The translations under genes and the position numbers were made by a program. This document shows positions 2,276 through 20,004 of a DNA stretch of 21,801 bases, piece after piece. Source of the stretch: a virus; IMG/VR virus record IMGVR_UViG_3300008217_003407, positions 1 to 21,801 of that record; one strand, given 5' to 3'. The stretch's first letter is position 1; the number at the start of each line of letters is the position of its first letter. The notes beneath the pieces were generated by a model, which saw nothing but the letters and a program-made list of their open reading frames with translations, did not search any database and was not told the DNA's origin.

Positions 2276-3658
2276 ATGGCCGTCCACCAGGCGCGGGCTG
2301 ACGGCGCACGGCGCATCGTCAGTAAGATTGGCCGCAGGTGGGGCAAGACCCGCTTCGGCATCGGTGACATGATAGAGGCCTACCATCATGTCCTCCAACA
2401 GCACCGCCCTGAGTCGATGGTCCCTCCCTTTCACGTCTGGCTGGTGGTCCCCAACTTCCCCCAGGCCCGGCAGCCCTGGAACGAGATGCAGCAACTCATC
2501 CCCAGAGAGTGGGTCACTCAGCTCAACCCGAGTGACTGGAACTTCTGGCTGCGGGGCAACGAGAGGTGGCAGCACCGCCAGGGGTTCGTCGAGGTCAAGA
2601 CGGCCCACGACCCCGACGCCCTCCAGACCACCGGCGTAGACTACCTGTGGATCGACGAGGCCCAAGACGTACCCAACGAGGCGTTCGAGAAAGTGCTGCC
2701 CGTGTCCAGGAGCCCAGGCGTCCTCGGCTGGCAGTACTTCGACGGGATACCGTCCCTGTACCCCGAGCACTGGTTCGAGCGTGCCTACCGGGAAGCCGAA
2801 CGCAACCCGCTGCACTTCTCCCATACCGCCACCTCCTTCGACAACCCGCTCCTGACCACCATCGACAAGGCCGAGATAGAGTCTGACCGAGAGGTGCTGT
2901 CCAATGCCGCATGGGAACGCTTGTACCTCGCGCAATACTCCGAGAACGCCGCCTTCTTCCGAAACGTATCTCAGTGCATCAGCGGCGACCTCCTCACTGA
3001 ACCTACTCCAGGGCGGCAATACATCGCCGGGCTGGATGTCGGCTGGACTAACGACCCCTCCGTTTTCATACTCATGGATATGGAATCAAGGAGAGTCGTC
3101 AACCACTGGGAATGGGACGGCTCGGTGAGCTGGGTCCAGACCCGTGAGCACATCATGGCCATCCACGACGAGTGGGGCCTCAAGACCATCATCTTCGACG
3201 CTTCCTCCGGTGGCGGCAAGGCCGTCGAGGAAGACCTGATGAACACTGGTCTGCCCGTCGAGCCGTTCGCCATCGTGGGAGAGCGACGCAAGGAATTGCT
3301 CGAGAGGCTGGCCGGCGCGACCGAACGGGCGACGATTTCGTTCCCGCCGATCCCGCAGCTTGTCAGACAGCTAAGGGCCATGCAGATGCGCCGGCTCCCC
3401 GCAGGCGCATACCGGCTCCAAGTGCCCAGGGGCGAGCACGACGACTATATCTTCGCGCTAGCCCTCGGCCTGACCGCTTGCATCGAGGCGAGGGCTCCGG
3501 TGTCCACGCCTCCCCGCGCCAGCTCCAGTCGGTACGTCCCGACACAGGCTGAGGTAGACGGACATGCTAGAATGCGCTCGAAGGGAGCCCAGATCATGCG
3601 CCTGGCCCGTTCGGAGCGCCTCAAGCGCCGAGCGGACATGGCGGACGTTGAGAGATGA
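2276..3658 (+). CDS. terL: Terminase large subunit (TerL), ATPase-nuclease
   Basis: The DNA-packaging motor and headful/cos nuclease. Counting from ATG 2276: Walker A IGRRWGKT at residues 18-25 (the phage-type variant), Walker B with catalytic Glu LWIDE at 124-128, and a likely coupling segment ATSFDNP at 185-191. The C-terminal RNase H-like nuclease has AGLDVGWTNDPSVF (Asp254), IIFDASSGGGK (Asp308) and a final acidic pair EHDDYIFALALG (389-390). All parts of a complete TerL are therefore present. The true N-terminus is almost certainly upstream: the frame is open back to 2171 and encodes the PHPGQ adenine-binding motif just before this ATG, but no normal start codon is in frame (see 2164-2275). 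The stop overlaps the next gene as ATGA. Codons favour C in the third position, as in the portal gene. Confidence 0.93.
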   Translation: MAVHQARADGARRIVSKIGRRWGKTRFGIGDMIEAYHHVLQQHRPESMVPPFHVWLVVPNFPQARQPWNEMQQLIPREWVTQLNPSDWNFWLRGNERWQHRQGFVEVKTAHDPDALQTTGVDYLWIDEAQDVPNEAFEKVLPVSRSPGVLGWQYFDGIPSLYPEHWFERAYREAERNPLHFSHTATSFDNPLLTTIDKAEIESDREVLSNAAWERLYLAQYSENAAFFRNVSQCISGDLLTEPTPGRQYIAGLDVGWTNDPSVFILMDMESRRVVNHWEWDGSVSWVQTREHIMAIHDEWGLKTIIFDASSGGGKAVEEDLMNTGLPVEPFAIVGERRKELLERLAGATERATISFPPIPQLVRQLRAMQMRRLPAGAYRLQVPRGEHDDYIFALALGLTACIEARAPVSTPPRASSSRYVPTQAEVDGHARMRSKGAQIMRLARSERLKRRADMADVER

Positions 3659-4080
3659 CCGTGACGGGGAACGCTGGGTATCGCTACCTATTAGAAACGA
3701 TTTACGGCCAGAAGCTCATGGAGAAGCAGATTTCGGCAGAGGTGAGAGTTTTTGTAGACAGCGAGTTGCGTGAACATGCCCTTCCGAAAGCGGGTGAGTA
3801 TAAACGGAATATTCCTGTTGAGGAACGCGCCAATCTTGTCCGGCTGCGGTTTGGGCTTGATGACGACAGCCCAAAGACTTTTACAGAGATAGCAGAGATA
3901 TACGGGATTTCGCACAGTCTTCCTTCCCAGTTGATATCTAAGATTCTGCGCGGGTTGCGCCGTCCACGTACAGCCTGGCCGCTCCGTCAATTGATGATTG
4001 AGGATGGACTTGGTCTCGACCCTGATGAGCCGATCCCAGGGCCGAAACCCTACTGGTACTATTACGAGGGTAGCTCATGA
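3655..4080 (+). CDS. Stand-alone sigma70 region-4-like protein
   Basis: Residues about 58-114 follow the primary sigma factor domain 4 from end to end: RANLVRLRFGLDDDSPKTF (like REAKVLRMRFGID...T), TEIAEIYGIS (first HTH helix), then KILRGLRRPRTAWPLRQLM (like KALRKLRHPSRS..LR). Domain 4 normally binds the beta-flap of RNA polymerase and the -35 box. Here the recognition-helix residues that contact -35 (RER.RQ in RpoD) are replaced by HSLPSQ, with a Pro in the helix, so -35 binding is probably lost or altered. Regions 1-3 are absent. Known phage parallels are small sigma-4-like co-activators such as T4 gp33. The gene overlaps TerL and portal by ATGA at both ends, yet uses noticeably more A/T in third codon positions than either. 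The tail (residues 124-131, DEPIPGPK) is encoded by a 25-bp stretch repeated at 18078. Confidence 0.7.
   Translation: MTVTGNAGYRYLLETIYGQKLMEKQISAEVRVFVDSELREHALPKAGEYKRNIPVEERANLVRLRFGLDDDSPKTFTEIAEIYGISHSLPSQLISKILRGLRRPRTAWPLRQLMIEDGLGLDPDEPIPGPKPYWYYYEGSS
4023..4047 (+). repeat. 25-bp exact repeat, copy 1 (encodes DEPIPGPK)
   Basis: The 25 bases from 4023 (TGATGAGCCGATCCC...) recur without a mismatch at 18078-18102, 14 kb away, in the same reading frame but inside an unrelated gene. Here they encode the C-terminal tail of the sigma-4-like protein. Identity at silent positions argues for recent copying or recombination rather than convergence on a peptide. Confidence 0.8.
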
Positions 4081-6178: not shown

Positions 6179-6350
6179 CCGACAGCAAGACCTGGTGAAC
6201 GACCCCGTGGAGATAGCGTTGCAGCGCGTTGAGGACCAGACCGAGGACGTGCTGGAACGCCTTGCTCCCCGAGAATCACGGCTCAGCCCGACAACGCAAT
6301 GGCTCCATCGGATTGGCCTGCGCGTGAAGGACTTAACAGATAATGGCTGA
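6168..6350 (+). CDS. Hypothetical 60-aa protein
   Basis: The GTG at 6168 is preferred to ATG 6144 because the AGGAGAGGAG run (6154-6163) is correctly placed for it; the protein then begins MANNRQQDLVNDPVEIALQR. It is mostly helical and charged (EIALQRVEDQTEDVLERLAP) and ends VKDLTDNG. It overlaps the preceding gene by 11 bases and the following giant gene by 8, so translation is probably coupled. No family recognised. Confidence 0.6.
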   Translation: MANNRQQDLVNDPVEIALQRVEDQTEDVLERLAPRESRLSPTTQWLHRIGLRVKDLTDNG

Positions 6351-9270
6351 GGTGCGCTCCGCCGTAAAACCCCTACCGATCTTCGCAGATGAACCAGAGC
6401 CTACTGAAGGCCCGCTAGGCCCACAGCCTACTAAAGGCCCAGAGCCTACTAAAGGCCCGCCAGAGACTCCTGAAGATGAGCGAGAGCTTACTTCTTGGGA
6501 GATATCGGAGCTAGGACATTTCGAGCGTATAAGACAGGCGATATACGCTCTCGGGTACAGCCCTACTACCCCGTCCTATATTCAACAGGTTCGGACGTAT
6601 GAGGCCAAGACAGCCGGCAAGCTGATTCCCCTTACTGACGACGATATTAGGACGATCATCTCGGACGCGGTTGGTAACGCAATGGCGTTAGGAGAGATAT
6701 CTACAGACGCGGAGACTGTTAACCAAGCCTATTTGTACCTCCTGTACCGCCTATTTGAAAAACCGCGGCAGCCCGCCGGGTTGCTGGCCGGCAAAGACGC
6801 GGCCGAGAAGGCCGGTGTTGGAGACGTGGTTCCACTCTCACGCCTCAGCCAAAACGAAGCCGCCGCTCTGGTCTGGCCAGGACCGTCTGGCAGCAGCCCG
6901 GTTCAACGGGCCCTTGACTCAGGTGTGGTAGTCCGCTGGCCAGAGTTGATTCGGCGCTATCCCGATACCCCGCTCACCATTGATAAAAGCAACCTGGGGC
7001 GCGGTCGTGCGGGACAGGCTTTCTTGGCTGCCCGGGATATGGAACAGGCTCCTATTGCTGACAGAGATTATTCTGCCCCGGACATGCAGGCCTGGCTTGG
7101 TCAGGTGAGTTTTCTGGAAGCTAGAGCAGCCGAAGGAACATACGCTGGGCGGCCTGCCAATTGGCGACAAGTCGTCACAAACGACATTCAAGCCCGCATC
7201 AAAGGCGATGAGGGCGCGATACTTCCAGATATATCTGTCGATAAACAGCCCCCACGGCAGCCCGCGCCCGCAGATACCGAGACGCTGCTTCGTCTCGTGG
7301 GGGACAATCCTAGCAAGAAGAAGTTCAAAGAGGCCTACCGGGTTTTACTCAGCAGGCGGGGGATCAACCCTGACGACGTGGACACCCTTGACGAAGATGC
7401 GCAGAAGATGATGGACCTTTACGGCAGAGCCTTTGGCACTGCGATGGCAGACATTACCGGCCCGGCTGATGAGGCAGGTGCAGCCGCCCACCGCGCTGCC
7501 CTGGATCAGGTTGCGTTGTTCGCGCCCATCCAGGCTTACTCTGCTCTTGGCCGTACCGCTGACCTGCGACGCATAAAGGAGAATACAAAAGCCAAGGAAG
7601 ATGCCCTGGCCGGTCTTGAGAAGGCTTTTGATAATTGGAAGGCAACACTCTCGCCTGGCTTCGGTACGGCTCCTGCCATCCTCGGCCCTAAAGCCAAGGC
7701 CGCTTGGGATAAGGCCCAGGAGGGGTTGAAGGCCTTTATCGTCGAACAGGCGAGGTTTGGGCTCGAGAGATACGACCCTGAATCTGACGATGCGTTCCCC
7801 GAGGTGAACGCGATATTCGCCACTATCTTCAGTGATCCTCGTATGCAAACTGCGTTCTCTGCCCGTGACGCGAATGTGTCCCAGGTCATGATCACCAGCA
7901 TGACCAATGACATTCTGGGCTCCTATTCCACCACGACCGGGATGGACAGGTTCATCAACAATTACATTGCGAACCGCCAACTCGGAGAACCCGACTTCTA
8001 CCTGACTGAGCAGGGCAAGCAGCTTCTTCGCAGCCAAATAGTCCAGTATGTGGAAGCCTGGGACCCCAAGAGCGGCGAGATACCCCTAACAGGCGAGTCT
8101 CTCCTAGAGCAGTTTATCCGCGACCCAGCCTTCGGACAGGCTAGCGCTCGCTTCAAGCTTCGTGGTGAGGCTCAACAATTCGGTGAGTTCGATCTCCGGG
8201 AACGCCTGGAGGCTGGTGCCCTCAAGCTTTCTAGCGAAGACTTCGCTGAGACACTCAACCGCATTCGCGAGTCTGACAACGCAGAGATGGTGCTCCAGGA
8301 CGTGTTCCAGAATCGTCAGCGCTATGAGATGGCCGAGGCCCGCGAGCAGGCCTTCAGAGACCCACAGGGGGTAGTGCAGCAGTACCTTATAGACCAGGGC
8401 GTTCTTACCCCAAGTTCCTCCGCTGAGTTCCGGCTACACGTCACCAACGAACTAATCGTCCCTATGGCTGTGGCCCTACAGACGTTTCTTGCGCGTGATC
8501 CTGACACTGCCGATGTAAATGATTTCGTGGAGCGGGAGTTCCTAGGGCGTCAGCGTGACCACCTAGTGGACCAGGACGTGTTTGAGGGCAAAGTGCGCTC
8601 TTCGGCAGAGAAGCAGCGCCTAGCCGCAATTCCAGGCTCGACGGTTCTTCCATCCACAGTGGAGCGTCGCGATATCCAACCCAGTGTGTTCGACCCGTTC
8701 CTCAAGCCGATTCTTGAAGACCCTCAGCAGGACGCCTTTAGTCGCTTTCTGGAGAAACAACTACCTGGAGAGTTAGACCTCTTCGCTCGTGCTGGAGTTC
8801 CCCGGCCTGACCCGGAGGAGGCGGCGTCTCTTGCCCTCTTCGCCCGTGAGAGCGGGGCTATCGAAAAGGGACTCCTGGCAGGCCAGCGGAAATACGGCGG
8901 CCCAGTCGATGACCAAGGGGTGCCTTGGCCGCCAGAAGGCCCTCCGCTAGAGCCTGCCAAGGGCCCCAGCGTGTCCCGACAAGAGACAGACAGGCGCGCT
9001 TGGGCGGCTGCTATGCGTCCGGCTGAGACTGCGGGCGGCTACTTCGAGCGCCGCTTGCCGATACTGCGGAGCGAGTTCGAGGCGTCCCCTGCTGGCGTTC
9101 TGGCCGGCCGCGAGCGCCGAGAGGGAGCAGAACTAGAGGCCACGGCAGCAACAGCTCGTGCCGAGACAGAAGCCTGGCAGGCGGCCGCAGATATCAGACA
9201 GACAGAGTCAACTCGCCGCCGTAGACTGCGCCGTGGTGGATTCACTCTGTTCCGTAAAGCACGAGCCTAG
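6343..9270 (+). CDS. Giant putative virion protein (975 aa)
   Basis: This is an uninterrupted 975-residue frame, one of two giants in the head region. The N-terminus has a Pro/Gly/Lys repeat (EPTEGP, QPTKGP, EPTKGP; about residues 18-39), the middle is mainly helical, and residues 850-880 are Pro-rich (PPEGPPLEPAKGPS). The last 60 residues form a charged helix (EATAATARAETEAWQAAADI) ending in the basic tail RRLRRGGFTLFRKARA. The tail carries the GxFxLFR motif that recurs in the next two genes. There are no transmembrane segments or catalytic motifs I can identify. Given its size and its neighbours (portal before, scaffold and capsid after), an internal head or ejection protein is the best guess. 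It starts with an 8-base overlap with the preceding gene. Confidence 0.75.
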   Translation: MAEVRSAVKPLPIFADEPEPTEGPLGPQPTKGPEPTKGPPETPEDERELTSWEISELGHFERIRQAIYALGYSPTTPSYIQQVRTYEAKTAGKLIPLTDDDIRTIISDAVGNAMALGEISTDAETVNQAYLYLLYRLFEKPRQPAGLLAGKDAAEKAGVGDVVPLSRLSQNEAAALVWPGPSGSSPVQRALDSGVVVRWPELIRRYPDTPLTIDKSNLGRGRAGQAFLAARDMEQAPIADRDYSAPDMQAWLGQVSFLEARAAEGTYAGRPANWRQVVTNDIQARIKGDEGAILPDISVDKQPPRQPAPADTETLLRLVGDNPSKKKFKEAYRVLLSRRGINPDDVDTLDEDAQKMMDLYGRAFGTAMADITGPADEAGAAAHRAALDQVALFAPIQAYSALGRTADLRRIKENTKAKEDALAGLEKAFDNWKATLSPGFGTAPAILGPKAKAAWDKAQEGLKAFIVEQARFGLERYDPESDDAFPEVNAIFATIFSDPRMQTAFSARDANVSQVMITSMTNDILGSYSTTTGMDRFINNYIANRQLGEPDFYLTEQGKQLLRSQIVQYVEAWDPKSGEIPLTGESLLEQFIRDPAFGQASARFKLRGEAQQFGEFDLRERLEAGALKLSSEDFAETLNRIRESDNAEMVLQDVFQNRQRYEMAEAREQAFRDPQGVVQQYLIDQGVLTPSSSAEFRLHVTNELIVPMAVALQTFLARDPDTADVNDFVEREFLGRQRDHLVDQDVFEGKVRSSAEKQRLAAIPGSTVLPSTVERRDIQPSVFDPFLKPILEDPQQDAFSRFLEKQLPGELDLFARAGVPRPDPEEAASLALFARESGAIEKGLLAGQRKYGGPVDDQGVPWPPEGPPLEPAKGPSVSRQETDRRAWAAAMRPAETAGGYFERRLPILRSEFEASPAGVLAGRERREGAELEATAATARAETEAWQAAADIRQTESTRRRRLRRGGFTLFRKARA
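9233..9265 (+). repeat. LFR-peptide DNA repeat, copy A
   Basis: Encodes RGGFTLFRKAR at the very C-terminus of the 975-aa protein. It matches copy B (9310-9342) at 30 of 33 bases, 77 bases downstream, which is in a different frame and a different gene. Confidence 0.75.
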
Positions 9271-9272
9271 CC

Positions 9273-9782
9273 GTGGCGCATAAGCAGACGGCCGCAGGTA
9301 AAAGACAGAGTGGTGGATTCCCCCTGTTTCGTAAAGCACGAGAGCGGACAGAGAACAGGGGGGCCAGGCGGGCGAACGCGGCAGCCCGCCGCCGCGCCGT
9401 TCCTTCTGTTCGCCCCGCGCCCATGCCACCGCCCAGGGTCCCGCCGCCGGCCTGGGGTACGCCTTTTCCCTTCGGTCGCCCCGTGCCCATGCCACACCCC
9501 TTGCTGCGGCCGCCGTTCGCCCAGGGGCCGCGTACAGGCCCCACCATCACGCACCCGAGTATGGAATACATCCCGCCACCAGGGGTCGCCCAGGATCGCT
9601 ACCTTCGCCCGCTTCGCCCAGAGGTCGCAAACTTCCCCGCAAGCAGAAGGCCGCACGTAAAAGGCAGAGTGGTAGATTCAGCCTGTTTCGTGACGATTGG
9701 CGAGAGGCTGAGTATCGAGGACTCGGCCCAAACGGATAAGTCCAGTTCGCAAGAAGCCTATCCCCTTTATGGAGATATCTGA
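9273..9782 (+). CDS. Pro/Arg-rich 169-aa protein of the LFR-repeat region
   Basis: Starts at GTG 9273, two bases after the previous stop, and ends at TGA 9780-9782 overlapping the next ATG (TGATG), so it fits the coupled operon. Residues 8-23 read AAGKRQSGGFPLFRKA, the shared LFR motif; about residues 38-95 are strongly Pro/Arg-rich and probably disordered (VRPAPMPPPRVPPP). Near the end the DNA carries another repeat copy (9657-9714), but this frame reads it as VVDSACFVTIGERLS. In frame 2 the same DNA gives KQKAARKRQSGRFSLFRDDW, matching the other copies. A frameshift within this gene (mutation or indel) is therefore possible, or the repeat was inserted out of frame. It could be a degraded duplicate of a neighbour's linker. 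Function unknown. Confidence 0.45.
   Translation: MAHKQTAAGKRQSGGFPLFRKARERTENRGARRANAAARRRAVPSVRPAPMPPPRVPPPAWGTPFPFGRPVPMPHPLLRPPFAQGPRTGPTITHPSMEYIPPPGVAQDRYLRPLRPEVANFPASRRPHVKGRVVDSACFVTIGERLSIEDSAQTDKSSSQEAYPLYGDI
9310..9342 (+). repeat. LFR-peptide DNA repeat, copy B
   Basis: Encodes SGGFPLFRKARE near the N-terminus of the Pro/Arg-rich protein. The upstream context (GGCCGCA-GTAAAAG-CAGAGTGGT) also resembles copy C, so the repeat extends left of the core. Confidence 0.75.
9657..9714 (+). repeat. LFR-peptide DNA repeat, copy C (block order X-Y)
   Basis: A 38-base block X (9657-9694) is identical to 10125-10162. The following block Y (9694-9714, 21 bases) is identical to 10107-10127. 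Copy C therefore has X then Y, while copy D has Y then X: a circularly permuted pair. Confidence 0.85.
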
Positions 9783-12700
9783 TGGCTACAGATGAAATCC
9801 GCCGCATAATCGAGGCAGCCAGGCGGCAACGGGAGGCTGCCGGTGGCCCCCCGGTCTCGCCCACTCCCACTCCACGAGCGATAATAGGCCCCGCTCCCTC
9901 ACCCATTGGACCTATTCCCTCACCCACGCCCACGCCCACGCCCACGCCGGTAGCAGCTACGACACTTGACCCAACCACGTGGCGAGACCCCAGCGCACGG
10001 GGGGCACCTTCCCTTCTACAGCAGGCAGGAACATTTGGTGGGCAGTCCCTTGACCTACTAACGGGGACAGGGGAACTCTTTCGGGGCCTTGTCACTTATG
10101 GCGTGCCGATTGGCGAGAGGCTGAGTAAAAGGCAGAGTGGTAGATTCAGCCTGTTTCGTGACCTTGTCACTTATGGGGGGAAGCCTGCGCTCGACTTCAT
10201 CCGCAGGACGCCTTACCTCAATATCCTTGCTCAGGCTGGCCCTAAAGAGGCCCTTGAAGAGAAGCGCGTTCTTGAGGGGTTGGACTTATTTTTCAAACCT
10301 GGCCTTCTCAATCGCGGAGAGATGGGCCGCCGGCTACAGATAATGGGCAAAAGAGGGACTGAAGAAGGTTCTGTCCTGGGCCAGCTCCTAGGTCCAGAGC
10401 TGGCGTTTCCTACTGGCGCTGTGCGTGTCGGAGCAGGCAAGGTGGTCAAGCACATGCCGCTGCTTGCAGCACTGCCGTTCATGATAAGAAACCAGTTCCT
10501 CCGGCCTAAGATTCAGCCTGCCGTTGCCAAAGAGGCAATGGCAGACGCAGTAGCCATTTTGAAGCAAGTGAAGCCTGAACAGGAGGCATTGACCAAGGCG
10601 CTGAAAACAGGGGGCGAAGTCAAGGTTGGTCTCCGTGCGCTGGAAGAGGAGAAGTTGCTTGGGCAAGGGCTTTCGCCCCTCGAGGCGTTCGAGGGGTCCC
10701 TTAAGGTCCTTGGAGGCAAAGCTGATCGGGGCATCTCGGAAGCTACTTCCAAGAACATACGCCGGATGGGCGACGAGCGCATCGAGCAACTATTCAATAT
10801 TGTCGATGAGTTCGACTATCGGCCCACCCAGAACCTCAATAACAAAAGGGCGTTCTTTGGCCTCTTTCAGATGGACGAGATACCCACACAGGGACAACTA
10901 CGCAACCTCTCACGCATCTTTGGTGACGACTTTGTTAACGAGGCAACGCGGCTACGGGGTCTCGGCCCAACTGCTTTCGACACCTTCCTGGACGTAGCGG
11001 GTATAAACCGTGCCATGATGACTACCTTAGATATCAGCGCCAGCGTGCGGCAGGCCGGACCACTTGGCATTGGGAATCTCAAGGCGTGGACAAACGCTAC
11101 TGGTGCGGGCATTAAGGCTGTGTTCAACCCCAAGTACGAACGAGCCATTGTGGACTCCATGCTGGACGATGTGCGTTTTGATGATGTGACTAAGGTGATG
11201 GGCGTGGACCTTACCATATTTGGACGAACAGCCACCACGATGGAGGAGTTGGCCGGGTCTCGTTTCGCAGACCTTTTCCCGTTTGTCAGAGGTTCTAAGC
11301 GCGGCCACGTCGTGCTCCTGAATAAGCTGCGTTGGGACGTGGCTAGAAAGTGGCGCGACGAGCTTATTGCCTCCGGGTATAGCATGAAGAGCGACGCTCA
11401 CATATTCCGCAACGCAGGGAAGACCATTAACATCCTCACCGGCCGAGGCCCTGCCCCAGGTGGTAACGCGAGTTTGTCGGCTTTGCTCAACGCCTCTGTC
11501 TTCTCATATCGCTTACAAACAGCCCGCATCCTTACCCCGGCCCTTCTGGCCCTGCCTGGTGTTCGGATGCGCGTCGCCAACTCTATGGTTCGCTGGACCG
11601 CCCTCGGGCTGACCTCCTTGGCCCTTGCTGATTTAATGTTCGATGAGGTATCTGTAAACTGGAAACACCCATTGTCCTCTAACTGGGGCAAGATACAGAT
11701 AGGCCCCCTCAAAATCGACCCCTGGGTAGGATTCCAGCAGTACGCTTCCCTCGCCTTTCGCTTAATGCAGGGCGCGGTAAGGACCGAGAAGGGTGTACGC
11801 CTGGAACGCGGCCGCCTCCAAGACCGGATGTCTCTCTTAGCAAACTTCGCCTTATACAAAGTATCACCGACGACAGGTTTAGCTCTAATGCTTGGACGCG
11901 GCGGGGAGTCTGTCTTCGGCGAGAAGGTGACCCCGAGTGAGGCTGCGCGGATGAACCTCACACCCCTGAACCTTCAGGCGCTACACGACGCATTTGTGGA
12001 CGCCGCGAGGTACTACGGTTCTGTAGATGCTGGCCTCTTTGCCGGCGCGAGCGCTCTCGTGTTGGAGACCGGCGGAGTTACTGCTAACAGCTACACTGCC
12101 TACAGCGCGGCTCTCGACCGAGCCGCGTTCGAGACCGCCGGAGTCAGAGACTACAACGATATTACTGACTTTCAGGTGCAGCAGAAGGTCAAGGAGCACC
12201 CTCTTGTGCTAGGGCTTCTCCGGGAGCGCGATGAGAAGCTGGTTGAGCACGGTTCCAGCCCAGGCGATCCTGTGGACATTCGTGTGCGGGACCATTGGAA
12301 CGACTACGAAGCCTCGAAGCTTCTCATCGAGATGCAGTTTGCCCAGGTGCTCGAAAAGGGCATAACGGGCGAGACCCTGTTACAGAAGGTGAAAGAGTTC
12401 AAGCGTGATAGCGCGGCTCAGTTCGACCTGAGCTTCAGCAAGGACGAACGAGACTATATGAAGGAACGGCGCTCACTCAGCCTCCTCAACCGCTACCGCG
12501 ACGAGTATTGGGCTATTGAGCCTGAGATTTACTATGTGCGGGGGCAGGAGCTAGAGAACCACAATGTCAAGGACGAGGAGCGCCAAAAGGTCTTGCGCCG
12601 TGCCGAGGACGCCGGGTTGAATCCTATTGATATCACCACTCGTGGCCCTAAAGACTTCACCTACGATATTGTGAAAGACGCCATCTTGGAATACGACGCT

Positions 12701-12943
12701 GATATGATAACTCTGCGGCCGCACTTTGATGTGCCGAACCGAGTAATCCAAGACGCAGACCTCCTTGACCTCTACTACGCTGGGGCTGAAGCGATAGACT
12801 TGGAACAGCAGGGAGACCCCAGGGCGGACGACTTGAGGCTCGCAAAGAAAATCATAGCCGACATACGGCTGCAGATAAGGCTGAACTCTCCAGTTATTTT
12901 CGACGCCGGTGTGAAGTATGGAAAATGGTCCCCCAGACGGTAG
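9782..12943 (+). CDS. Giant virion protein, candidate DNA-ejection protein (1053 aa)
   Basis: After a disordered N-terminus with a Thr-Pro run (PTPTPTPTP), residues 98-132 contain a tandem duplication (LFRGLVTYG ... KRQSGRFS-LFRDLVTYG). Around residues 550-655 it carries a pattern I associate with large multi-domain phage proteins: ILTGRGPAPG, then ALLNASVFSYRLQTARILTP, a hydrophobic helix (about residues 601-620, MVRWTALGLTSLALADLMF), then SSNWGKIQIGPLKIDPWVGF, the 'SS-x-x-GKI-x-x-G-x-x-x-(I)D-x-W-x-GFQQ' signature. The rest is helical. Such proteins are thought to be packaged and ejected with the DNA, interacting with the host membrane. GGAG at 9771-9774 is a good ribosome site, and the ATG overlaps the previous stop. 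The family assignment is from memory and the function is inferred. Confidence 0.75.
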   Translation: MATDEIRRIIEAARRQREAAGGPPVSPTPTPRAIIGPAPSPIGPIPSPTPTPTPTPVAATTLDPTTWRDPSARGAPSLLQQAGTFGGQSLDLLTGTGELFRGLVTYGVPIGERLSKRQSGRFSLFRDLVTYGGKPALDFIRRTPYLNILAQAGPKEALEEKRVLEGLDLFFKPGLLNRGEMGRRLQIMGKRGTEEGSVLGQLLGPELAFPTGAVRVGAGKVVKHMPLLAALPFMIRNQFLRPKIQPAVAKEAMADAVAILKQVKPEQEALTKALKTGGEVKVGLRALEEEKLLGQGLSPLEAFEGSLKVLGGKADRGISEATSKNIRRMGDERIEQLFNIVDEFDYRPTQNLNNKRAFFGLFQMDEIPTQGQLRNLSRIFGDDFVNEATRLRGLGPTAFDTFLDVAGINRAMMTTLDISASVRQAGPLGIGNLKAWTNATGAGIKAVFNPKYERAIVDSMLDDVRFDDVTKVMGVDLTIFGRTATTMEELAGSRFADLFPFVRGSKRGHVVLLNKLRWDVARKWRDELIASGYSMKSDAHIFRNAGKTINILTGRGPAPGGNASLSALLNASVFSYRLQTARILTPALLALPGVRMRVANSMVRWTALGLTSLALADLMFDEVSVNWKHPLSSNWGKIQIGPLKIDPWVGFQQYASLAFRLMQGAVRTEKGVRLERGRLQDRMSLLANFALYKVSPTTGLALMLGRGGESVFGEKVTPSEAARMNLTPLNLQALHDAFVDAARYYGSVDAGLFAGASALVLETGGVTANSYTAYSAALDRAAFETAGVRDYNDITDFQVQQKVKEHPLVLGLLRERDEKLVEHGSSPGDPVDIRVRDHWNDYEASKLLIEMQFAQVLEKGITGETLLQKVKEFKRDSAAQFDLSFSKDERDYMKERRSLSLLNRYRDEYWAIEPEIYYVRGQELENHNVKDEERQKVLRRAEDAGLNPIDITTRGPKDFTYDIVKDAILEYDADMITLRPHFDVPNRVIQDADLLDLYYAGAEAIDLEQQGDPRADDLRLAKKIIADIRLQIRLNSPVIFDAGVKYGKWSPRR
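9923..9946 (+). repeat. Hexanucleotide microsatellite (CCCACG)x4
   Basis: Four exact tandem CCCACG units encode part of the Thr-Pro run at the N-terminus of the 1053-aa protein. Slippage by whole units would change linker length by two residues without breaking the frame. Confidence 0.85.
10076..10176 (+). repeat. 75-bp tandem duplication with LFR repeat, copy D
   Basis: Bases 10076-10101 and 10151-10176 match at 23 of 26 positions, 75 bases (25 codons) apart, encoding LFRGLVTYG and LFRDLVTYG. Between them lie block Y (10107-10127) and block X (10125-10162) shared with copy C. The reading frame is kept, so the duplication adds 25 residues to the protein. Confidence 0.8.
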
Positions 12944-17180: not shown

Positions 17181-17372
17181 ATGTTTACCGAGATAGAGCG
17201 AACAATTTTCGTAGACCTGGATGCTGAGGGCGAAGAGGTGCAGCGCATCGTGTTCCAGCCACACGACGGGATGGTTCCCACGCTATCCGCGAATTATTTA
17301 CCTGGCTGGCTTAACGAGCTAGAGGCGAACAGGTTGCTTCAGCAGCAGAACCAAGAGGTGACCCTTGGGTAG
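17181..17372 (+). CDS. Hypothetical 63-aa protein
   Basis: Begins MFTEIERTIFVDLDAEGEEV with GGAGG four bases before the ATG (a short spacer). It reads as a small beta-strand/helix unit and ends with a helix (WLNELEANRLLQQQNQ). Its end overlaps the TTG start of the next gene, so they are probably translated together. No family recognised. Confidence 0.6.
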   Translation: MFTEIERTIFVDLDAEGEEVQRIVFQPHDGMVPTLSANYLPGWLNELEANRLLQQQNQEVTLG

Positions 17373-18222
17373 GCGCATCTGTCTCGTCGGATTCTCTGAC
17401 ATCAATCGTATGTGGGCTATGAAACAACCCAAGGCGGTTGAGCTTTGGGGATTGAACGAGGTCCATAATTGCGCCGCACGGCTTCAGCACACCGACGAAC
17501 TAGGGCGTGTGACGCAGACACGTTGTCGCTGCTACAATCCACATCAGTGTACATGCGAGAGCCACAAGCATAGCTTCATGCCGAGGTACGACCGTTGGTT
17601 CCAACTCCATCCCAAGGCTTGGAAAGAAGAGAAGCGCCTCAAGGCGCTCAAGGAAGATGGCCTAACGCTACACCCACGGGATCGTGGCGTGTTCGGGCGT
17701 AACGAGTCCCACTTAAAGTTCCTGCGAGAATGCGATGTGGCTGTCTACGGCCAACGGAAGTGGGCAGATATCCCGAACTCAGTGCGTTACCCGTTTGGTG
17801 CGATTCAGGAGTTGTACGGCCAGCGTCGCGGTAGCAAGAAGTGGCTCTACTCGACATCGACACCGGCCTACATGATAGCGCTAGCCCTTTACGAGCATCA
17901 CCAAGGGGATACCGTAGACGAGATACGGATAGCGGGCATTGAACTTGCGGTAGGCACCGAATACTTCTGGCAACGCCCGTGCATGGAGTTCTACATGGGC
18001 ATCGCGATTGGCTACGGGATAAAGGTCACCACGCCACCACAGGGTTCGTCTATGCTGGCAGCACCGAGATATATCCTTGATGAGCCGATCCCAGGGCCGA
18101 AAGACTACAAGCACGAGTCCTTCCCGCTCTCATTGCCAACAGACCGACAGATAGTCAAACACGGGCTGCCTCAAGCTGCAATGGACGATGGTGCGGCCAA
18201 GGAGTTGCTAAGTGTCCGTTGA
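17365..18222 (+). CDS. Rossmann-like protein of the 'WGLN...DRWFQLH' type
   Basis: 285 aa from a TTG start, chosen because AAGAGGTGA precedes it and the frame overlaps the previous gene by 8 bases. Residues 5-31 (ICLVGFSDINR ... ELWGLNEVH) and DRWFQLHP (about residues 76-83) match a pattern I know from phage and capsule loci: a Rossmann-like start with V/LVG, then WxLN, then DRWFxxH. Its biochemical role is not established. An insertion with CRCYNPHQCTCESHKH (about residues 53-68) looks like a zinc-binding loop. Residues 239-246 (DEPIPGPK) come from the 25-bp repeat also present at 4023. It starts a small cassette with an FkbM methyltransferase and a NeuB enzyme, pointing to glycan-related work. 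Confidence 0.65.
   Translation: MGRRICLVGFSDINRMWAMKQPKAVELWGLNEVHNCAARLQHTDELGRVTQTRCRCYNPHQCTCESHKHSFMPRYDRWFQLHPKAWKEEKRLKALKEDGLTLHPRDRGVFGRNESHLKFLRECDVAVYGQRKWADIPNSVRYPFGAIQELYGQRRGSKKWLYSTSTPAYMIALALYEHHQGDTVDEIRIAGIELAVGTEYFWQRPCMEFYMGIAIGYGIKVTTPPQGSSMLAAPRYILDEPIPGPKDYKHESFPLSLPTDRQIVKHGLPQAAMDDGAAKELLSVR
18078..18102 (+). repeat. 25-bp exact repeat, copy 2 (encodes DEPIPGPK)
   Basis: Identical to 4023-4047 and in the same reading frame, here near the C-terminus of the Rossmann-like protein. The flanks differ on both sides, so the match is limited to 25 bases. Confidence 0.8.
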
Positions 18223-18910
18223 ACTCCTAGATTACCCGAAAGCCGCCCTCAAAATGGTGGTCAATACGGGATATGAGCGGACGTGGCGCATCAATTCCTG
18301 TTTCAAGGAACCCCATACCGTGCGTTGGCTTGACGAGTACATCGAGGAAGGCGACGTGTTCTACGATGTGGGCGCTAATGTTGGGGCTTATTCCCTGATC
18401 GCAGCGCACCTTGGAGCTCAGGTCTACGCATTTGAGCCCGAAGCTATGAACTACGGGCGGCTGGTCCAGAATGTGGGTCTGAACAAGCTCGAGGAGAAGA
18501 TCAAGGCGCTACCGCTGGCTTTATGGGACCGCCATCGCATTGAGACGATGTACGGCACTGTTTTTACATGTGGCGCTGCCAGTCACAAGTTCGAGCAGAA
18601 TGGGACTCAGTCTCTCCAGCAAGCTGTGTTCACCGTCCAGATGGACGATCTGACGATGCACCATATCCCTCTGCCGAACATCGTCAAGATTGACGTGGAC
18701 GGCTACGAAGAACGAGTGGTGAACGGCGCAGTGTTCGCATTGGCCAACCTCCAGCTAAAGACACTCATGGTTGAGGTGGACTACATCAATGAGAGGTCAG
18801 CCCAACATGTGCTGGGGTCGGTGCGATCAGCAGGCTTGACCGAGTACCATTCGCACCAACACACCGAGACGCTGATAACCCACTTCTTCGCACGCGGGCG
18901 GAAGGGCTGA
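18212..18910 (+). CDS. FkbM family SAM-dependent methyltransferase
   Basis: 232 aa. GTG start with AAGGAG seven bases upstream, overlapping the previous gene by 11 bases. The SAM-binding core is clear: VFYDVGANVGAYSLIAA (motif I, about residues 49-65), VYAFEPE (acidic loop, about 71-77), then the FkbM signature NIVKIDVDGYEERVVNGA (about 156-173). FkbM-type enzymes methylate hydroxyls, often on sugars or polyketides. Position between a glycan-associated Rossmann-like protein and a NeuB-type synthase suggests it caps or modifies a sugar on the virion or host surface; the substrate is not known. It is complete and its motifs are intact. Confidence 0.88.
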   Translation: MSVELLDYPKAALKMVVNTGYERTWRINSCFKEPHTVRWLDEYIEEGDVFYDVGANVGAYSLIAAHLGAQVYAFEPEAMNYGRLVQNVGLNKLEEKIKALPLALWDRHRIETMYGTVFTCGAASHKFEQNGTQSLQQAVFTVQMDDLTMHHIPLPNIVKIDVDGYEERVVNGAVFALANLQLKTLMVEVDYINERSAQHVLGSVRSAGLTEYHSHQHTETLITHFFARGRKG

Positions 18911-18912
18911 CC

Positions 18913-20004
18913 ATGCGAGAACTCGTGATCGACGGCCAGCGCATCGCTGACGATACTCCCCCGTACATCGTGGCAGAGATTGGGCACAATCACGGTGGCT
19001 CATTGGACCGTGCTAAGGAGATGGTGCGCACTGCAAAAGATGCTGGGGCGAGTAGCATAAAGGTGCAGACTCGTCACCCCAGGGAGGTGTACGCGCCTAC
19101 AGACGAGGCTGGCGGCTACTTCTATGTGTCTCGCAACAAGCAGTGGATGGACGCGGTATACGGCAAGCACCGCGAGAAGCTAGAGTTCACCGTCGAGCAA
19201 CACGCTGACCTGTTCGACTATTGTCGGGAGGTGGGCATAACAGCTTTCTCGACACCCTTCGACAAGTCCAGCGCGGACTTGCTGCACAGTCTCGATGTTC
19301 CAGCGTTCAAGGTGGCCAGCGGGGACGCCACCAACATCCCGCTCATCCAGTACATTGCGTCCAAGGGCAAGCCGATGATCGTGTCCACTGGCGGATGCAC
19401 CTTCGGTGACGTGAACCGCATCTACGAGGCCCTGGAGCACCATACGGCGGGCTTTGCGCTCCTCCAGTGTTCCTGTATCTATCCTGCCACGAGCGACATC
19501 CTCAACCTGAACATCATCCCGAAGTACCGAGCGTGCTTCCCTGGCCAGGTAGTCGGCCTGTCCACGCACCATCCTCGGTGGGAGCCATCGTTGGCCGCCT
19601 ATGTGCTCGGTGCCCGCATCATCGAGCACCACTACACCAACGACCGCTCGTGGAAGGGGACAGACAACAACTTCTCGCTGACGCCATCTATGCTGCGTGA
19701 GTTGGTCGATGCCTGCGAGGCCATACGCGACACAGGCGGCGATGGCTTCAAGCAGGTTGACCCGCGAGAGGAGTCCTACGCCACGGAGCGCCAGAAGTCG
19801 CTCTACTGGGCGCGGGACTTGGCCGAGGGCGACACCATTGCCGAGGACGACGTTGCTATCATGTGTCCAGGTGGTGGCATCCCGCCGTATGAGATAGGCA
19901 ACGTCGTAGGCCATGCCGTAGACCGCGTCTGTTTGCACGGTGAACGCATTACGGACCAGGACATTGTGACTATCCAGACCGAGGCCGAGTATGCCATTAG
20001 CTAA
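18913..20004 (+). CDS. neuB: NeuB-type N-acetylneuraminate (sialic acid) synthase
   Basis: 363 aa, the normal length for the family. NeuB condenses phosphoenolpyruvate with a hexosamine derivative (ManNAc or a relative) to a nonulosonic acid. N-terminal TIM barrel: YIVAEIGHNHGGSLDRAKEM (residues 18-37), IKVQT (49-53), ITAFSTPFD (109-117), FKVASGDATNIPLI (132-145), MIVSTGG (155-161). The metal-site histidines appear conserved in GLSTHH (215-220) and EHHYT (238-242), and the family GPD motif reads GTD (249-251). The C-terminal SAF domain spans about residues 293-353. The usual GLSDHT motif is changed to GLSTHH, so the substrate may differ. GGAAGGG precedes the ATG. Related enzymes (PseI, LegI) make other nonulosonates and cannot be excluded. 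No other pathway gene is in the window. Confidence 0.9.
   Translation: MRELVIDGQRIADDTPPYIVAEIGHNHGGSLDRAKEMVRTAKDAGASSIKVQTRHPREVYAPTDEAGGYFYVSRNKQWMDAVYGKHREKLEFTVEQHADLFDYCREVGITAFSTPFDKSSADLLHSLDVPAFKVASGDATNIPLIQYIASKGKPMIVSTGGCTFGDVNRIYEALEHHTAGFALLQCSCIYPATSDILNLNIIPKYRACFPGQVVGLSTHHPRWEPSLAAYVLGARIIEHHYTNDRSWKGTDNNFSLTPSMLRELVDACEAIRDTGGDGFKQVDPREESYATERQKSLYWARDLAEGDTIAEDDVAIMCPGGGIPPYEIGNVVGHAVDRVCLHGERITDQDIVTIQTEAEYAIS

Follow-up and report, generated by a model that had tools for sequence, protein, structure and literature searches.

The virus record studied here is a window of 21.8 kb (IMG/VR record IMGVR_UViG_3300008217_003407, positions 1-21,801; "the window" means this entire stretch). 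Searches with its capsid and portal proteins gathered up to 19 and 51 related loci, respectively, several of which are parts of one contig. Most loci that span the region share the gene order terminase, portal, short ORF, p975-type gene, p1053-type gene, scaffold and capsid, with p975-type proteins of 400 to 1120 aa and p1053-type proteins of 1000 to 1800 aa among the relatives. From this position, p975 and p1053 can reasonably be taken as virion genes. The phage group around the record is poorly known. Its capsid is a distant relative of the pelagiphage HTVC026P capsid (about 27% identity), and among the window proteins only capsid and terminase gave distant matches in cultured phages; no cultured-phage relatives were found for p1053, for the portal, or for the p975 homologue of locus L054. 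Scanning bacterial and archaeal genomes with the capsid alignment returned no match. A profile search against solved structures also found nothing. The closest contig, L004, is 99.8% identical and stops within the portal gene, short of the repeat region. The features of that region are as follows.

6343..9270, plus strand: p975 gene (975 aa, an ORF between portal and p1053), ending in copy A; homologues in L006, L008, L013, L030, L054 and L055 share a C-terminal module.
9208..9270, plus strand: copy A, the native tail at the C-terminus of p975, TESTRRRRLRRGGFTLFRKARA with its stop (core 9233-9265); among homologues it is conserved only at C-termini.
9271..9781, plus strand: lineage-specific insert of 511 nt from p975 stop to p1053 start, recognized by junction comparison, coding signal and homologue search; it holds the ORF 9273-9782 (169 aa, frame 0).
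9284..9342, plus strand: copy B, frame 0 (KQTAAGKRQSGGFPLFRKARE), lacking 30 nt found in A (repeat families D1-D3; alignment to A).
9641..9714, plus strand: copy C, B-like on the left (9641-9691) and D-like on the right (9657-9714), and only its frame 2 encodes the LFR peptide (repeat families, frames, alignment).
9782..12943, plus strand: p1053 gene (1053 aa), homologous to proteins of L006 and L030, with a profile match to a 1582-aa protein of MW202497.
10076..10101, plus strand: left 26-nt repeat flanking D (LFRGLVTYG), 88% identical to 10151-10176 at a spacing of 75 nt.
10107..10162, plus strand: copy D, read in the frame of p1053 (IGERLSKRQSGRFSLFRD), with the blocks of C in rotated order (exact 21-nt and 38-nt blocks).
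10151..10176, plus strand: right 26-nt repeat (LFRDLVTYG), which overlaps D at its end and is 88% identical to 10076-10101.

The four DNA copies have their cores at 9233 (A), 9310 (B), 9669 (C) and 10137 (D), and all fall within 9177-10176 of a record that is possibly incomplete. Identity is 91% over 33 nt between A and B and 88% over 51 nt between B and C. Copies C and D share 38 nt exactly (9657-9694 = 10125-10162, so that the exact block begins at 9657 in C and at 10125 in D) and a further 21 nt (9694-9714 = 10107-10127) in reversed order relative to the first block. At 38 nt, the longer block exceeds every other exact repeat of the whole window, and 50 Markov simulations reached a maximum of 17 nt; the repeats are therefore not a product of chance. 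The places and similarity of the copies given in a preliminary description of this DNA thus stand, as do its two exact C/D blocks in opposite order. Written out, the candidate docking peptide of these repeats is TRRRRLRRGGFTLFRKARA. Substitutions between copies are mostly non-synonymous; those separating B from C, at few sites, all spare the G, F and LFR residues. A diversity-generating retroelement was set aside as their source, because the cores of C and D do not differ and the changes among other copies are not adenine-specific by eye.

Identity over 38 and 21 nt also raises the question of an assembly artefact, in which C and D, or the entire insert, would come from mis-joined short reads, and no second contig covers the region, L004 having stopped upstream. 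Copies A and B, and B and C, differ at several sites, however, and so are not one collapsed sequence; the repeats are short, and comparable in-frame repeats occur in p975 genes of other relatives. We regard such an artefact as very improbable.

The preliminary description presented C and D as circularly permuted. The rotation is exact, the C unit being a rotation of the D unit on a circle of 55 nt, and its cause is simple. When the 75-nt unit of D (10088-10162) is taken as a cycle, C aligns to it at 58 of 58 positions with a single gap of 20 nt, which falls between the near-identical CGTGAC and CGTGCC. This is the pattern of a slippage deletion. The blocks look permuted because C and D are one 75-nt unit in different phase, C minus 20 nt, and the same loss puts the two blocks of C in different frames. 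Since the left part of C is B-like, C bridges a chain A-B-C-D, as expected for successive copying of short tracts.

Copy A belongs to a larger pattern. Homologues of p975 have a C-terminal module (approximately FFxxRLPGLREEFxxSPxG), then a variable charged stretch, then a terminal tail, and related basic tails end six distant homologues of this roughly 1000-aa protein encoded between portal and scaffold. The tails compared were ESTRRRRLRRGGFTLFRKARA followed by the stop in the window, ESTRRGELRGGQSIFRRRMA followed by the stop in L054, RDRRRKLRGRGMNVFERLRR in L030, ERTRRGQLRTGRTVLTR in L008 and ERTRRRTLTRGKVMVR in L013, with weaker forms in L055 and L006; the consensus is about E-S/R-T-R-R-x-x-L-R-x-G-x-x-I/L/V-F-R, and relatives show variants such as FTLFRKARA, RTVLTR and KVMVR. 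A regular expression for the tail matched 4 of 945 ORFs, each at the C-terminus of a p975-type protein; it was composed after the tails had been seen, and so locates the motif and yields no unbiased p-value. Some proteins in the p975 position (L007, L009 and L010, for example) carry different C-terminal ends. In p975 the LPGLREEFxxSP module is followed, at the very end of the protein, by the basic tail RRxxLRxGxx-hydrophobic-F-R in copy A; B, C and D lie at no such C-terminus. Relatives lacking the motif in all of these proteins, the observation that the preliminary description had set against its own proposal, are not what we found for copy A, as the tail is kept in p975 homologues. On this comparison copy A is native to p975, and its conservation at C-termini suits a functional peptide, which the tail probably is. 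The comparison pinpoints a conserved, testable C-terminal tail on p975, a large and uncharacterised member of the portal-scaffold block.

The AlphaFold model of p975 has a mean pLDDT of 45, too poor for a fold search; in it the tail follows a long helix (916-964), the best-scored part of this low-confidence model. The tail is probably flexible, and the position of p975 makes it a probable internal or ejected protein of the head. The tail may contact another virion component or DNA.

Immediately downstream, 24 of 25 relatives place the p1053 start at -8 to +27 nt from the p975 stop; in the window the distance is 511 nt. The exception, L022, has 328 nt and a separate ORF at this junction. That short ORF (L022:3694-4023) ends in APSLRNDYGRTSSFSPSTRFLYR, like a p975 C-terminal module plus tail, as if a p975-type gene had been split.

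In frames 0 and 2 the insert of the window has a coding score close to zero, which falls below the coding mean of 0.12 and above the off-frame means of -0.26 and -0.33. A search of all frames of the middle ORF found no clear coding signal, and a search for homologues of its 169-aa product found none, nor any counterpart in the relatives; with no relatives and a weak coding signal, the ORF was rejected as a real gene, and its coding value is doubtful. Translation of copy B hinges on a GTG start, and no ribosome-binding site is evident for it. At copy C the ORF reads frame 0 (VVDSACFVTIGERLS) and the peptide lies in frame 2, for which no start codon (ATG, GTG or TTG) occurs in 9335-9660. A programmed -1 frameshift joining B and C was also considered and rejected, frame 0 having no canonical slippery heptamer. 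Only A and D, therefore, are safely translated as the peptide. Of the earlier picture of a repeat spread over three adjacent virion genes, A in p975 and D in p1053 survive; the middle ORF is doubtful, C is out of frame, and "virion" is drawn from position. Similarly, of the placements proposed for the peptide, a C-terminal tail in A and an internal site in D hold, and the near-N-terminal one in B is only as good as its GTG start.

Copy D occupies residues 116-126 or thereabouts of p1053. BLAST matches that protein to its counterparts in L006 (E 4e-74) and L030 (E 8e-70), with alignments that start only at residue 241, past the copy; the L030 homologue in turn matches one metagenomic phage. The AlphaFold model of p1053 has a mean pLDDT of 47, again too poor for a fold search, and the stretch holding D scores below 50; the N-terminal region carrying the copy is probably disordered. 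What had been described as a 75-bp in-frame tandem duplication around D is really a pair of 26-nt ends (88% identical) spaced 75 nt apart, with no duplicated 75-mer. The gene for the 1582-aa protein of MW202497 lies two genes downstream of one for a "phage stabilization protein", a position that fits the ejection proteins known from P22-like phages.

Copies B, C and D were sought in the relatives and found in none. GxFxLFR occurred there in no plausible gene, a looser motif gave native tails only, plus matches at the level of shuffled sequence, and no p1053-type protein of a relative contained the motif. Repetition as such, by contrast with the shuffle expectation of 0, is a habit of the p975 family: exact repeats of at least 18 nt occur in 6 of 25 p975-type genes, 1 of 20 p1053-type genes and 0 of 18 portal genes. 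The p975-type repeats form 21 pairs, with overlapping pairs of one array each counted, and 20 of these are in frame. They differ by lineage: TLYPDMP and AKDMSDR in L006, EGGVEEGQ and PLARRGF in L008, FIAEQQQF in L030, PGVQNG in L009, and tandem arrays in L012 and L007. The in-frame repeats of L006:3096-3475, L008:4033-4957 and L012:901-3450 form chains of partly overlapping blocks. Genes of the p975 family thus repeatedly gain short, mostly in-frame duplications, and the LFR copies of the window look like the same habit spilling past the end of the gene.

We infer, with a probability of roughly 0.6, a short-tract duplication of the conserved C-terminal tail by slippage or template switching, A being ancestral and B-D local copies. 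The ancestral element would be the basic tail of p975, and the 3' end of that gene would have been copied to adjoining sites through slipped-strand mispairing or template switching at micro-homologies, a process acting on DNA and blind to reading frame. Its products would be B just past the stop codon, C some 360 nt further on, and a chimeric D in the unconserved N-terminal region of p1053. Being in frame within a linker, D may be tolerated, and B and C lie in the insert, whose coding value is doubtful. All three look like recent copying events blind to frame, and most extra copies look like by-products. The copies resemble known slippage and template-switch repeats in their short units, junction micro-homology, phase-shifted copies with a deletion at short direct repeats, location in unconserved regions, and restriction to one lineage, being absent from relatives. 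They differ from the usual intragenic kind in that they cross a gene boundary and in that one unit comes from a conserved C-terminal tail.

Several observations run counter to this duplication reading. B-D occur in one genome only, which leaves no intermediates to reveal the order of events; 30 nt of A are missing from B, so B is no simple copy of A; the B/C changes that spare G, F and LFR could hint at selection; and D has retained both its frame and an intact motif. The last two points would suit a functional tag, by which the tail docks p975 into the procapsid (through portal, scaffold or capsid) and the copies on the small ORF and p1053 are retained as the same putative signal. The conservation of tail A, the in-frame position of B as well as D with their G-x-F-x-LFR residues intact, and the location of the genes between portal and scaffold agree with such a role, which would make D a natural experiment on gaining a docking signal. 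The motif, however, is in no relative's p1053 or middle gene, the latter being absent there and doubtful here; copy C is out of frame, and the tail itself is variable in relatives. We consider a retained tag unlikely. The expanding repeat across virion proteins that the preliminary description envisaged, a spreading head-docking tag, lacks support beyond copy A, since the motif turns up nowhere else in relatives and B-D look like frame-blind duplications. A combined account, in which a putative docking tail of an internal head protein was duplicated by replication errors and captured by neighbour genes, with new proteins thereby entering the phage head, strikes us as distinctly unlikely; if true, it would offer a glimpse of packaging signals spreading among virion proteins.

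Because the copies occupy more than one frame, the core might alternatively be a selfish or functional DNA element, either a small mobile element or a protein- or replication-binding site, with coding incidental; the sharing of another short in-frame tract of 25 nt (DEPIPGPK) by two other genes, at 4023 and 18078, would fit. The core, however, has no palindrome or terminal repeat, the sole inverted pair found lying elsewhere in the insert; the copies are restricted to 1 kb around the native tail, and the degenerate core pattern had no match in a viral contig collection. This explanation we find scarcely credible. Rickettsia palindromic elements are repeats that insert in frame into protein genes, and the likeness is that one DNA repeat lies inside several coding regions. 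Here, in contrast, there are four copies of about 50 nt within 1 kb, neither palindromic nor dispersed over the record.

As large proteins encoded beside portal, scaffold and capsid genes, p975 and p1053 also recall the polyvalent or ejected head proteins of LPD38 type. In L054 the syntenic protein has an LPD38 match. Phage-type polyvalent proteins are the only ones from which this domain is reported, and proteins of that class are believed to be packaged and injected (PMC5512222). No LPD38 match was found in p1053 of the window, to which the L054 protein is not detectably similar by BLAST, and packaging of p1053 is only putative.

Two further features of the window were observed. The 25-nt exact repeat TGATGAGCCGATCCCAGGGCCGAAA (4023-4047 and 18078-18102) is read in frame as DEPIPGPK in each of two unrelated ORFs (3655-4080 and 17365-18222) and is absent from the relatives save the near-identical L004. 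The stretch 18212-20004 contains an FkbM-like ORF together with a gene that Pfam assigns to the NeuB family, and L030:4616-6179 holds, by eye, two ORFs resembling sialic-acid-type sugar genes between the portal and the p975 homologue; these may be surface-glycan genes of the phage group.
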